NCBI GenBank assembly: GCA_937927915.1
Contig: CALGKB010000004.1
Location: 1 to 64,000, forward strand
Length of the DNA: 64,000 nt
DNA from: an uncultured Pseudanabaenaceae cyanobacterium
GTDB lineage: Bacteria > Cyanobacteriota > Cyanobacteriia > Pseudanabaenales > Pseudanabaenaceae
Reading direction: 5' to 3'
The position numbers and the translations under genes were made by a program. The notes beneath the pieces were generated by a model. The model worked only from the letters and a program-made list of their open reading frames with translations. It did not search any database and was not told the DNA's origin. How positions within the stretch are numbered: the first letter of the stretch is position 1; each line of letters opens with the position of its first letter. Below are positions 21,968 through 28,172 of the stretch, in pieces.

Positions 21968-22612
21968 GTGTTGACCTCTGTGCATATCCTAGCCATTGTC
22001 AACGGTAAAGGAGGAGTAGGCAAAACTACGACATCAATCAATTTGGCGGCTATTTTTGGGCAAACTCGACGGGTTTTGTTAGTAGATACTGACCCCCAGC
22101 GTTCTTCCCATTGGTGGGTAAAACGATCGGAATTGGACATCGGGTTTGATTTGGTGGTGATGACCGATGGGGGAAAGTTACAGGAGCTGACGCAGAGGGA
22201 TGAGTACGACCTCTTGGTGATAGATACGCCCCCCAATCTCGGCTCCCACACTTTAGCAACAGTAATTCAAATGTCCCACTATTTGCTGTTGCCTACTCCC
22301 CCTGCCCCTATGGACTTGGCGGCGTTAATTGAAACGGTGAAATCCTCTGTCTTACCCGCTGGCGTTGCCCACAGAGTGCTACTAACTAGGGTTGATCCCC
22401 GCAGTCTAGGGGAGGCACTGGAAGCCCAAAATACTCTGCTATCAGTGGGAATTCCCGCCTGTCATGCCTTTGTGCGTGCCTATAAAGCTCACGAGCGCGC
22501 TGCCCTAGAGGGCAAATCTATCCTACAGTGGCGGGGTAAGAATGCCAAAGAAGCAGAGTCGGACTACAGAAGGGTAGCGGAAGAGATCGAAAGAGATTGG
22601 CAAAGGCGCTAG
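21968..22612 (+). CDS. ParA family ATPase
   Basis: 214 residues. AIVNGKGGVGKTTTSINLAA is a deviant Walker A motif with the signature lysine, VLLVDTDPQRSS is switch I/Walker A', and LLVIDTPPNLG is Walker B. ParA ATPases form DNA-bound dimers that position plasmids, chromosomes or large complexes. I start at GTG 21968; TTG 21971 or GTG 21980 are alternatives. Its 3' end overlaps ccmN by four bases, convergently. Carboxysome positioning by a ParA-type protein (McdA) is known, so this location is suggestive, but no McdB-like partner is visible. Confidence 0.9.
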   Translation: MLTSVHILAIVNGKGGVGKTTTSINLAAIFGQTRRVLLVDTDPQRSSHWWVKRSELDIGFDLVVMTDGGKLQELTQRDEYDLLVIDTPPNLGSHTLATVIQMSHYLLLPTPPAPMDLAALIETVKSSVLPAGVAHRVLLTRVDPRSLGEALEAQNTLLSVGIPACHAFVRAYKAHERAALEGKSILQWRGKNAKEAESDYRRVAEEIERDWQRR

Positions 22613-23133
22613 GAGTTGGTCTGGCGATGGGGGAAAATTTTGACCATGAGGCGATTTAATTGCATCTGCCCGTAGGAGATTCCCTGTTGCACCTGGCGGA
22701 CTTCGGTTTCAATCTGGGCGGTAGGGGTCGGTTCCTGGTGGGGGGAGGGGGGATTTTCCTGGGTCCTAGGCTCTTGAGACTGAGAGGGAGAGGCTTCCTG
22801 GGTAATCAGTGCCCCGGAGGGAACAATCTGCCCCGCCGCAATGTCGACGTTGTAGATGGTTGTAGCCGCGCCAATGCAGCTCCCCGCGCCAATTTGGACT
22901 TTCCCGATCACTAGTACCGCCGCCCCTAGGTTTGCCCCTGCGCCGATGCCTATGTCTCCCCCGTAGGCATGAATAATTGTCCCCATCCCTACACATACCC
23001 CTGCCCCGATCGTGATCCGATAGCCTTCCTCTGCCTGTAACAGGACACCGGGAGCAATCACTGCACTGGGGTCAATTGTCACATTGCCGACGGTATGGGC
23101 TGTGGTGAGGGGTTGGAGGGCAGCTAGGTACAT
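22609..23133 (-). CDS. ccmN: Carboxysome assembly protein CcmN
   Basis: 174 residues. Residues about 15-115 are left-handed beta-helix hexapeptide repeats (VTIDPSAVIAPGVLL, VQIGAGSCIGAATTIYNV). A Pro/Gln/Ser-rich linker (residues 115-150) joins a short amphipathic helix near the C-terminus, QMQLNRLMVKIFPH, the encapsulation peptide that binds the CcmK shell. CcmN bridges CcmM (through its N-terminus) to the shell during beta-carboxysome assembly. It is the last gene of the operon, two bases after ccmM. Confidence 0.93.
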   Translation of the reverse strand: MYLAALQPLTTAHTVGNVTIDPSAVIAPGVLLQAEEGYRITIGAGVCVGMGTIIHAYGGDIGIGAGANLGAAVLVIGKVQIGAGSCIGAATTIYNVDIAAGQIVPSGALITQEASPSQSQEPRTQENPPSPHQEPTPTAQIETEVRQVQQGISYGQMQLNRLMVKIFPHRQTNS

Positions 23134-23135
23134 GA

Positions 23136-24956
23136 CTAGCGTTTAGGACGTTGCACTATGGTTTCTAGGACGCGGCGCTTGCTCTTGCTATCCATGCCGA
23201 TTAACCGCACGTAGTCCCCTGGGTGTTCCCGCAGGAGTTGTTCCAATGCCTTCACTACTTCCGCCTCTGTGTTGCCAGGGATGGGAGGACAGCTTTGCCA
23301 GGAACTGGTGCGGAATCTCCTTTCGTCGGCATACTCAGCACTAACTTTGTAGCCCTGACTGAGGATTTGTCGGATATGTTGCACTATTTCCGGGGGCAGA
23401 CTGCTGGCTGTGTAGCTATAGCTGGGGGTAGTAGAGGGAGTGGGGTTGCTGGCGGGCGTACTGACTGGAGCCGTTGCCTTGCCATTGGGACGTTGAATGA
23501 TCACTTCCCCTACCCGCTTTTTGTTCTTGGGGTCGATGCCAAACATCCGTACATATTCCCCTGCGTGCTCCGCCAGGCAGGCGTTGAGGGCAGCTAGCAC
23601 AGCACTTTCACTGGTGGCTTCGATGGGTTTACAGCTATGCCAGGAACTAGTGCGGAAGCGGCGTTCGTCGGCGTGCTCTGTGCCAATGCGATACCCCTGA
23701 CTCAAGAGAGACCGCACGTGACTAGCGAGGTCACCACTGGGATTACCTGGTACAGTGGGAGGGGTAGCCGCTGCGCTGGTCGTAGGGGCATCGATAGGGG
23801 CTGTTGCCACTTGTCCTGGACGTTGGATGATCATTTCCCCCACTCGCTTTTTGTTCTTGGGGTCGATGCCAAACATCCGTACATATTCCCCTGCGTGCTC
23901 TGCCAGGCAGGCGTTGAGGGCAGCTAGAACAGCACTTTCACTGGTGGCTTCGATGGGTTTACAGCTATGCCAGGAACTAGTGCGGAAGCGGCGTTCGTCG
24001 GCGTGCTCTGTGCCAATGCGATAGCCCTGGGCTAACAATTGACGGACCTGCGCTGTCCAGTCAGCACCATTGCCGTTGGTATTGGTAGTAGCAACTCCTG
24101 GGGCAGGAGCGGTAACCACAGGACTTTCCCCTGGCCGTTGGATAATTTGCTCTAGTACCCGCTGCCGCGATTTGGGGTCAATCCCTATCAACCGCACATA
24201 TTCCCCTTCGTGTTCCTTTAAGCAGGCTTGTAAGTTGCGCAATACCGTGTACTCATCCGTGGCATGGATGTTAGCGCAGCTCTGCCAAGAACTTGTCCTA
24301 TATCTTCTTGTATCAGCGTATTCTGCCCCCACCCGATGCCCTTGGGCTAATAGCTGCCGCACCAGGGGAGCAAGCTCCGTTCCTTCTTTCATGTCTGTAC
24401 TCTCTTGATGTCCGTTGGTAACGATGGTTGCTGGGGCAGTTATTCTGGGCATTGCCATTCCCCCCAGTTGCTCCGCTAACAACCGATCGGTAGGGGTAAT
24501 ATCGGGGAGATGGTCGGCTTGTTGCTGCGTGGTAATCACTGACCCACTGGCGATGTATTTCCCTGGCGGAATCTCCACATCCTGGATGACAGCGTGCATC
24601 ATTACAATGCAGCCATCCCCAATGCGACTGTTGAAAATAGTGGAGCGAAAGCCAATAAAGCAGTTCTCCCCAATGAAACAGGGTCCATAAATCAAGCAAA
24701 AATGGGTCAGGACAGTCTTTGCCCCAATCCATACCCCGTAATCCTTGCCGTCTTTACCCAGCACTCGCCCCTGGGTTAACCCCCCCACGATCGTGCCTTC
24801 CTGTATCCGTACCCCGCCGCCAATGTGGAAGGGCGCCCCCCCCTGGGAATGAATAACTACTCCTGGGGCTAATACCGCATTCTCGGCAATATAGACCTCC
24901 CCACTCACCCGGGACAGGGGATGGACATGGGCTTGGGGCGCTATGGTGATGGTCAT
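23136..24956 (-). CDS. ccmM: Carboxysome scaffold CcmM: gamma-carbonic-anhydrase-like domain plus four RbcS-like (SSUL) modules
   Basis: 606 residues. The N-terminal ~180 residues form the gamma-CA-like beta-helix, ending [23 protein letters not shown]. Four SSUL modules follow (about 197-283, 303-390, 413-500, 520-606), each with (R/K)(R/F/Y)RTSSW(Q/H)SC; modules 1-3 have a second Cys for a disulfide, module 4 does not. SSULs condense Rubisco into the carboxysome core. Two zinc ligands of active homologues appear replaced: VxGGL instead of VxHGL, and LIYGP instead of LIHGP; TH is kept. The domain is probably inactive as an anhydrase. An internal ATG at 24392 ([11 protein letters not shown]) could start the short Rubisco-binding form. 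Confidence 0.95.
23517..24025. repeat. Near-identical 330-base tandem duplication inside ccmM (SSUL modules 2 and 3)
   Basis: The block at 23517-23695 recurs at 23847-24025, an offset of 330 bases, with only about three differences over some 179 bases. Flanking linker sequences differ much more. The translated SSUL2 and SSUL3 cores are the same over [20 protein letters not shown] and beyond. This points to recent duplication or gene conversion between the modules. Confidence 0.9.
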
Positions 24957-24961
24957 AGTTC

Positions 24962-25264
24962 CTACCGCGATTGTAAGCGCTTGTTGTAAATAAATTGATT
25001 GCCGATCGTGACTGTATCAATAATTGCCACTACTGCCGCATCGATCGGACGGTTTTCCCCGTCGCGAATCTGCCTTGCCCCGCTGCCGAGACTGACTAGA
25101 ACCCACTCTTCAATGCCTGCACCGACGGTATCCGCCGCCACTTCGTAGTGGTCAGTGAGTTCCCCCTTTTCATCGACAAACTGCACCAGTAGGAATTTCG
25201 TGCCCGCCAGGGAAGGCTCCTTTTGGGTACTGACCACCGTACCGATCGCTTTGGCAATCCGCAT
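24962..25264 (-). CDS. ccmL: Carboxysome pentameric vertex protein CcmL
   Basis: 100 residues, the EutN/CcmL size. [23 protein letters not shown], then LLVQFVD, and ETD-type [20 protein letters not shown] are conserved family blocks. CcmL pentamers cap the vertices of the icosahedral carboxysome shell. It sits between ccmK and ccmM with one-base and five-base gaps, in the usual operon order. Confidence 0.96.
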
Positions 25265-25265
25265 A

Positions 25266-25607
25266 CTACGGACGGTTCATGGGGCGAATGGCATTGACGT
25301 TGTCGCGGAACTGCTCCACTTCCTCCGTGTAACGGATGGGCAATACATACTCTAGGTTCTCGTGGGGGCGGGCAATGATGTGGGTGGAGAGCACCTGACC
25401 ACCATTAACACGCTTGACTGACTCTGTTCCCGCTGCCACAGAAGCCTGTACCTCCGAGACATCCCCCCGCACAATCACGGTGACACGACCACTGCCAATT
25501 TTCTCGTAGCCCACGAGGGTCACCCGCGCTGCTTTGACCATCGCATCGGCAGCTTCTACGACGGCAGGGAAGCCTAAGGTCTCAATCATCCCAACTGCAA
25601 TTGCCAT
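25266..25607 (-). CDS. ccmK: Carboxysome shell hexamer CcmK (copy 1, nearer ccmL)
   Basis: 113 residues, one BMC domain. [51 protein letters not shown] (seen in parts along the sequence) includes the KIGS pore loop. It forms hexagonal shell tiles with a central pore for bicarbonate and ribulose bisphosphate. Compared with the upstream copy it has a longer C-terminal tail ([17 protein letters not shown]). The two copies are close paralogues, as with CcmK1/CcmK2 of other beta-cyanobacteria; I cannot say which is which. Confidence 0.95.
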
Positions 25608-25713: not shown

Positions 25714-26022
25714 CTAAAAGGAAAATTGCTCCACTTCTTTGGTATAGCGAATGGGCAGGACATATTCTAGGTTTTCGTGGGGACGGGCAATAATATGGGT
25801 GGAGAGGACTTCTCCCCCGTTGACCCGCCGCGCCGACTCTACCCCCGCAGCGATCGATGCCTGTACCTCCGAGACATCACCCCTGACAATGACTGTGACA
25901 CGACCGCTGCCAATTTTTTCGTAGCCCACGAGGGTCACCCGTGCAGCTTTCACCATCGCATCCGCTGCCTCCACTACGGCAGGGAAGCCTCTGGTTTCTA
26001 TCATTCCGACGGCAATAGGCAT
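25714..26022 (-). CDS. ccmK: Carboxysome shell hexamer CcmK (copy 2, first gene of the operon)
   Basis: 102 residues, one BMC domain, with the KIGSGR pore loop. It is nearly the same as the next gene except at the start, a few inner residues ([13 protein letters not shown]) and a shorter tail ending EVEQFSF. It lies 106 bases upstream of the other copy. As the first gene it follows the shared regulatory gap with ndhF, so the promoter of the ccm operon should lie in 26023-26294. Confidence 0.95.
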
Positions 26023-26294: not shown

Positions 26295-28172
26295 ATGGTG
26301 GCGTTCCTCAATTCTTTGGTGTGGCTGATTCCCCTCTACGGGCTGCTGGGAGCGATCGGGACTTTGCCCTGGGCGTTGGGTCTAGTACAGAGAACAGGTC
26401 CTCGTCCTGCTGCCTATTTGAATTTGTTGGCGACGTTTTTTGCCCTTGTCCACAGTTTGGTGCTGTTTGTGGGGCAGGCACCCCCCGTTGGGATCGAGTA
26501 CCGCTGGCTGCAGATTGGTGACTTTAGTTTGACCCTCACTTTGGACATCTCCCCTACGACGACGGGGGCAGCCTTTTTGATTGGCATGATCAGCTTTTTT
26601 TCCCAGGTCTATGGCTTAGCCTCCATGGAGATGGACTGGTCCCTGGCACGGTTTTACGCCCTCATGGGGTTTTTTGAGTCAGCAATGACGGGGATTGCTA
26701 TGAGCGATTCCTTTTTCCTCAGCTATGGGCTGCTGGAGATGCTCACCCTATCTACCTATCTTTTGGTGGGGTTCTGGTATGCCCAGCCCCTGGTGGTGAC
26801 GGCGGCGCGGGATGCCTTCTGGACGAAGCGGGTGGGGGATTTGATTTTGCTTATGGGTTTGATCGGGCTGTCTACGCTGACGGACAGTCTCAATTTTTCT
26901 GACCTGGCGCTGTGGGCGGCTTCCCCTGATACGGTGCTGTGGGCGCAGTCCCATCCCCTATGGGCAAATTTGTTGGGGCTTGCCCTCATTGCCGGTCCGG
27001 TGGGGAAATGTGCTCAGTTTCCTCTACATCTGTGGCTGGATGAGGCGATGGAGGGTCCTAACTCCGCTTCGGTTTTACGCAATTCGGTGGTGGTAGCCTG
27101 TGGTGCCTATGTCCTGATCAAGTTAACGCCTGTGCTAGCAATTAGTCCCATCGCTTTGGCAGTGCTGGTGGTTTTGGGGACGATTACGGCGGTGGGGGCA
27201 GCTTTGGTGTCCATTGCCCAGATTGATATTAAGCGGGCGTTGTCCCACCTCACCAGTGCCCATTTAGGGTTGGTGTTTATTGCCGTCGGTACGGAACATA
27301 CGGAAGTGGCGCTGGCGTTTCTCCTGACCCATGCGGTGGCAAAGGCGCTCCTGTTTATGAGTACGGGGGGAATTATGATGACTACCATGACCCAGGATTT
27401 GACGGAGATGGGGGGAATTGGGTGGCGGATGCCAGCGACAGCGATGGGGTTTGCCATTGGCAGTCTCTCAGCCGTGGGAATTTTGCCCCTGGGGACATTC
27501 TGGACTTTGCTCAACTTTGTAGACAGTCTGTGGGGCAGTGCCCCTGGGTTGGTGGCGGTGGGGTTGGTGGTGAATGGCATTACGGCATTTGGTTTGATGC
27601 GGGTGTTTAGTTTGGTATTTCTAGGGAAACCGCAGCCCAAGACGCGCCGTGTCCCTGAGGTAATGTGGCTAGCGGCTGTGCCCACCGTCTCCCTCACAAT
27701 TGTCAATCTCCTCACCCCTGTCCTGGTCTGGCAATGGGAACTCTATCCCCCCCGTTTGCACAACCCCTGGCTGGAAATTGGCTTACTGGTAGCAACAGGC
27801 ACGATCGGGTTTCTCTCGAGTTGTCACATTTACATTTGGAATGTCTATGCCCCTGCCTCTACGGTGGCTTTACCCCCCCGCCCTATCGCCTTGCTATGGA
27901 AATCGGTGCAGGATGTGCTGGCGAATGACCTCTACGTGCAGGCACTCTATCGCAGTACAGCGGTGTTTGTGGTGGGGTACGGTTCCCGCTTGATGGGCTG
28001 GCTCGATCGCTTTGTTGTAGATGGCTTAGTTAACTTTTTGGGTATAGCCTCAGTGTTTACGGGGGAGACCCTCAAATATACAGTGACAGGGCGATCGCAG
28101 CAGTATGCCTTGACCATTGTGGCGGGGCTGTTATTGGCTATGGGCTTAGTGGTGTGGAAATTGCGCACCTAG
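26295..28172 (+). CDS. ndhF: NDH-1 subunit F, CO2-uptake type (NdhF3/NdhF4-like)
   Basis: 625 residues, about sixteen membrane helices, of the proton-pumping Nuo-L/NdhF family. FWTKRVGDLILLMGLIGL, QFPLHLWLDEAMEGPNSASVLRNSVVV and the conserved Lys/His helix KRALSHLTSAHLGLVF are family marks. Special NdhF forms work with NdhD and CupA/CupB in NDH-1 complexes that hydrate CO2 to bicarbonate. Its position, divergent from the ccm operon, is seen in other cyanobacteria and supports a CO2-concentrating role, though no ndhD or cup gene follows here. I cannot separate the F3 from the F4 type. The 3' end overlaps the next, convergent gene by four bases. Confidence 0.85.
   Translation: MVAFLNSLVWLIPLYGLLGAIGTLPWALGLVQRTGPRPAAYLNLLATFFALVHSLVLFVGQAPPVGIEYRWLQIGDFSLTLTLDISPTTTGAAFLIGMISFFSQVYGLASMEMDWSLARFYALMGFFESAMTGIAMSDSFFLSYGLLEMLTLSTYLLVGFWYAQPLVVTAARDAFWTKRVGDLILLMGLIGLSTLTDSLNFSDLALWAASPDTVLWAQSHPLWANLLGLALIAGPVGKCAQFPLHLWLDEAMEGPNSASVLRNSVVVACGAYVLIKLTPVLAISPIALAVLVVLGTITAVGAALVSIAQIDIKRALSHLTSAHLGLVFIAVGTEHTEVALAFLLTHAVAKALLFMSTGGIMMTTMTQDLTEMGGIGWRMPATAMGFAIGSLSAVGILPLGTFWTLLNFVDSLWGSAPGLVAVGLVVNGITAFGLMRVFSLVFLGKPQPKTRRVPEVMWLAAVPTVSLTIVNLLTPVLVWQWELYPPRLHNPWLEIGLLVATGTIGFLSSCHIYIWNVYAPASTVALPPRPIALLWKSVQDVLANDLYVQALYRSTAVFVVGYGSRLMGWLDRFVVDGLVNFLGIASVFTGETLKYTVTGRSQQYALTIVAGLLLAMGLVVWKLRT

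Follow-up and report, generated by a model that had tools for sequence, protein, structure and literature searches.

Does the carboxysome protein CcmM encoded in this DNA still act as a carbonic anhydrase (CA), and, if it does not, which enzyme would take over its task? The window analyzed here, a whole stretch of 64,000 nucleotides from an uncultured Pseudanabaenaceae cyanobacterium, contains a gene for a protein of 606 aa that consists of a gamma-CA-like (gCAL) domain followed by four SSUL modules and scored above the cut-off of 550 for the NCBIfam equivalog beta_CO2some_M (NF053794). The gene was found inside a ccmKLMN cluster on the minus strand, in the order ccmK-ccmK-ccmL-ccmM-ccmN, and was identified as ccmM. 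The features of the cluster are listed below.

24956..23136, minus strand, ccmM, 606 aa (NF053794, 722 bits, and four RuBisCO_small stretches)
24462..24956, minus strand, gCAL domain of CcmM, residues 1-165 (phmmer to 3KWD, 7D6C, and 7O4Z; Foldseek)
24390..24392, minus strand, Met189 (MKEG), where a short CcmM made of SSUL modules alone may be started internally (in three species, an AAGAG is conserved upstream)
22609..23133, minus strand, ccmN (NF053793, 126 bits, cut-off 100)
24962..25264, minus strand, ccmL (NF053795, 157 bits)
25266..25607, minus strand, ccmK-type shell protein (BMC domain, PF00936)
25714..26022, minus strand, ccmK-type shell protein (BMC domain, PF00936)

Met189 is conserved and stands directly ahead of the first SSUL module; together with the upstream AAGAG, it may be the start of a short Rubisco-linking isoform, as in Synechococcus elongatus. 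Within the gene (window 23136-24956), SSUL modules 2 and 3 (residues ~297-380 and ~407-490) are near-identical in protein sequence, which suggests a recent duplication or gene conversion. A ParA-type ATPase gene (window 21968-22612, plus strand; 113 bits to NF041546, below the cut-off of 180) is convergent with ccmN and occupies the same position in the sister species G002 (locus also listed as L303:7408-8100, minus strand); its product may serve in carboxysome positioning (McdA-like) or may be unrelated. The cluster also adjoins a gene for an ndhF3-type subunit of a CO2-uptake NDH-1 complex (window 26295-28172, plus strand; TIGR01960, 798 bits), an arrangement also found in G001 and G002.

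The gCAL domain was aligned without gaps to the active CcmM of T. elongatus BP-1 (3KWD/3KWC), the comparison proposed in a preliminary description of this DNA, and to the gCAL domain of S. elongatus. Foldseek gave TM 0.86-0.91 against 7O4Z/3KWD, and an AlphaFold2 model built from a 29-row alignment had the expected fold with a moderate pLDDT of 71 and weak stretches at residues 37-43 and 53-55. The zinc-histidine columns of Cam (H81/H117/H122) are occupied by G58, H85, and Y90, leaving one of the three histidines of a catalytic gamma-CA. The preliminary description had read the same glycine, retained histidine, and tyrosine, and its codons GTG GGG GGG TTA and ATT TAT GGA were recovered when we re-read the nucleotides. 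Its view that zinc could hardly be held also agrees with our analysis, in which the sequence strongly supports that the domain cannot bind zinc in the known way. The positions concerned are the following.

24783..24785, minus strand, codon 58 GGG, Gly at the first zinc His (Cam H81; alignment and nucleotides)
24702..24704, minus strand, codon 85 CAT, His kept (Cam H117; alignment and nucleotides)
24687..24689, minus strand, codon 90 TAT, Tyr at the third zinc His (Cam H122; alignment and nucleotides)
24840..24851, minus strand, residues 36-39, HSQG where RADE is expected (Cam R59, D61, E62; alignment)
24807..24809, minus strand, codon 50, Arg at Cam N73 (alignment)

The decay goes further than was claimed at first. 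Arg59, Asp61, Glu62, and Asn73 of Cam are established catalytic residues, and an established feature of BP-1 CcmM is a cysteine pair that activates the enzyme on oxidation. In the present CcmM, these four residues are replaced by H36, Q38, G39, and R50, respectively, and no C-terminal cysteine pair of the redox-activated type was found between the gCAL domain and the first SSUL module.

The preliminary description had placed a CcaA gene outside the window, and the genome indeed contains one. A single beta-CA (PF00484) protein was identified (G000:C7:11710-12417), the nearest relative of which was CcaA of Synechocystis PCC 6803 (5SWC; 275 bits over residues 1-196). It harbors the motifs CSDSR and GHTHCG, with all zinc and catalytic residues present (C-S-D-S-R, H..C), and differs from the PCC 6803 enzyme in its smaller size (236 aa) and in having a shorter linker ahead of its CcmM-docking tail, WLPPEQQERIYRG. 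The protein ends in SWLPPEQQERIYRGSNSLTR, which matches the C2 peptide through which CcaA of S. elongatus binds gCAL (PMC8580825). According to that paper, the peptide PEQQQRIY binds gCAL as a short helix, and Trp257 and Arg265 are needed (PMC8580825). All eight gCAL residues contacting C2 (L81, F123, N124, R126, D141, E143, Q159, and D163) are conserved in our CcmM, and the two sister species have them too, as does genus g6, in which the decay has advanced further. No alpha-CA was found in the genome, and a stand-alone gamma-CA-like protein (L273, G000:C7:224103-224579) retains R/D, NIQD, and all three zinc histidines.

Among the closest known parallels is CcmM of S. elongatus PCC 7942 (7O4Z, 7D6C), which has the same eight C2-binding residues. 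It is described as a gCAL scaffold without CA activity that docks the C2 tail of CcaA, with SSUL modules that bind Rubisco (PMC8580825). However, the PCC 7942 protein still has all of HHH, and its losses concern secondary residues (e.g., N73), whereas the CcmM studied here has lost two zinc histidines in addition to R59/D61/E62; it also has four SSUL modules, compared with three in PCC 7942. CcmM of BP-1 (3KWC) shares the same fold and family, and about 55% of its residues in the aligned structure are identical, but it has both HHH and RDENQD, which are lost here. According to the literature, the CcmM cysteine pair is present and CcaA is absent in BP-1; the reverse holds for our genome.

We aligned and scored the CcmM domains of 160 cyanobacterial genomes (163 copies), in which genomes were marked CcaA-positive by a homologue of our CcaA at E <= 1e-20, a mark that may take in tail-less paralogues; relatives outside that sample were marked by a CcaA-type match. 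The zinc triad was broken in 27 of 118 copies from CcaA-positive genomes vs 1 of 45 from CcaA-negative genomes (Fisher p = 0.0009, ignoring kinship), two of the 27 being gapped at the triad, one of them a truncated ORF (G043). Similarly, RDENQD was intact in 52/118 and 44/45 copies, and the cysteine pair was present in 49/118 and 45/45 copies, respectively (Fisher tests, ignoring kinship). A kinship-corrected test of independent pairs pointed in the same direction, with only 5-6 supported pairs and thus underpowered. The lone exception, G061 (L216 / L306, G061:C520), is a MAG with 8% contamination that encodes a CcmM with HHY, and no beta-CA was found in its assembly. Among further CcaA tails fetched from triad-broken genomes, 18/18 had the docking motif, in exact or closely similar form.

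The survey also bears on the course of the decay. Of the CcaA-positive copies, 44 keep everything and 37 still have HHH but neither the cysteine pair nor the full set of secondary residues, and 25 of the 27 triad-broken copies lack both the cysteine pair and intact secondary residues. These groups look like successive stages, and their staging fits an order in which the cysteine pair and secondary residues would be lost before the zinc ligands. When the active-site columns were excluded from tree building, about 11 breaks of the triad were counted, with changes of H81 seven times, of H122 ten times, and of H117 once (binomial p about 0.007), and the middle histidine is kept in nearly every dead CcmM. 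To this histidine (H117, here H85) we would tentatively assign a second, non-catalytic role, e.g., in trimer cohesion or in binding another ligand, at slightly less than an even chance. In Cam, H117 is contributed by the neighboring subunit, and the trimer role is therefore offered as a guess.

G002 and G001 (the latter apparently the MAG M5B4), two further species of the genus at 92% and 79% identity, respectively, have the same glycine, histidine, and tyrosine, and for this reason these residues are not a sequencing slip. A sequencing or assembly artefact is virtually inconceivable and was ruled out because both species (79-92% identity), whose genomes were assembled independently, share the substitutions and because dN/dS is low. 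The gCAL dN/dS was 0.06-0.07, a constraint no weaker than that in the linkers and the SSUL part; synonymous sites were saturated in the comparisons with G001, and therefore the value against G002 (0.07) is the safest. Such strong purifying selection suggests that the domain is maintained, but not as an enzyme. In a sister genus of the same family (L142 of G007 and L144 of G012), the CcmM domain is more decayed still, with the first coils barely recognizable and a cysteine in place of the third zinc histidine, yet the CcaA pocket is kept.

A rearranged metal site, in which H36 together with H85 and another residue would bind zinc or another metal and some activity would be kept, could draw on the retention of H85 and on H36, a residue that the three species of the genus share and that occupies the Arg59 position, close to the former zinc site. 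However, no known gamma-CA has a ligand at that position, the losses extend to R59, D61, E62, and N73 as well as to the cysteine pair for redox activation, and an intact CcaA is present in the genome, which makes this reading very unlikely. It is extremely improbable that the site is dead and that an enzyme other than CcaA, such as the stand-alone gamma-CA-like protein (G000:C7:224103-224579), does the work in the carboxysome. That protein has the complete zinc triad with R/D and NIQD, but no known carboxysome targeting, and to our knowledge such stand-alone proteins are not carboxysomal, whereas CcaA has a CcmM-docking tail and the matching pocket is conserved.

The question raised by this locus has a very probable answer: the gCAL domain of CcmM is a gamma-CA fold without catalysis, kept as a trimeric scaffold that docks the CcaA tail, and CcaA supplies the CO2. 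The domain would bind the C-terminal tail of the beta-CA, the SSUL modules would bind Rubisco, and CcaA, encoded at another locus, would supply CO2 inside the carboxysome. The zinc site would have been lost because a separate CcaA appears to do that job, and selection on the gamma-CA site would have relaxed once CcaA did the work. The absence of zinc and activity, the docking of CcaA, and the order of events are inferred from sequence, and several points weigh against this explanation, namely Fisher tests that ignore kinship beside an underpowered pair test, G061 (HHY, no beta-CA found), the stand-alone gamma-CA-like protein, and the moderate pLDDT of the model. The initial proposal that the carboxysome must use another CA, for example CcaA, gains an intact, tailed CcaA gene; that CcaA supplies the CO2 is the part that stays probable.

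Earlier papers report that CcmM acts as a catalyst where CcaA is absent and has usually lost this activity where CcaA is present, and the losses they describe are of secondary residues and cysteines (PMC9120777, PMC8580825, PMC9865033, PMC10172474). A loss of the zinc histidines was not found in the portion of the literature covered by our search. The enzyme swap itself is already known, and what we add is the survey counts and the loss of zinc ligands as an apparent late step of the swap; the CcmM analyzed here follows the known pattern at a more advanced stage than most described cases. A report on thermophiles describes a tendency of strains living above 50 C to lose ccaA and to depend on CcmM (PMC9120777), and M5B4, the named member of the genus, is from a hot spring (PMC9600594). 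This genus kept CcaA, the opposite of the tendency of other thermophiles. The results provide a clear example from nature of how an enzyme domain can end up as a scaffold only, once its task has passed to another enzyme, and relatives represent each step of the way. They also open a simple sequence rule to testing, namely that CcmM retains the full gamma-CA site in any cyanobacterium that lacks CcaA.
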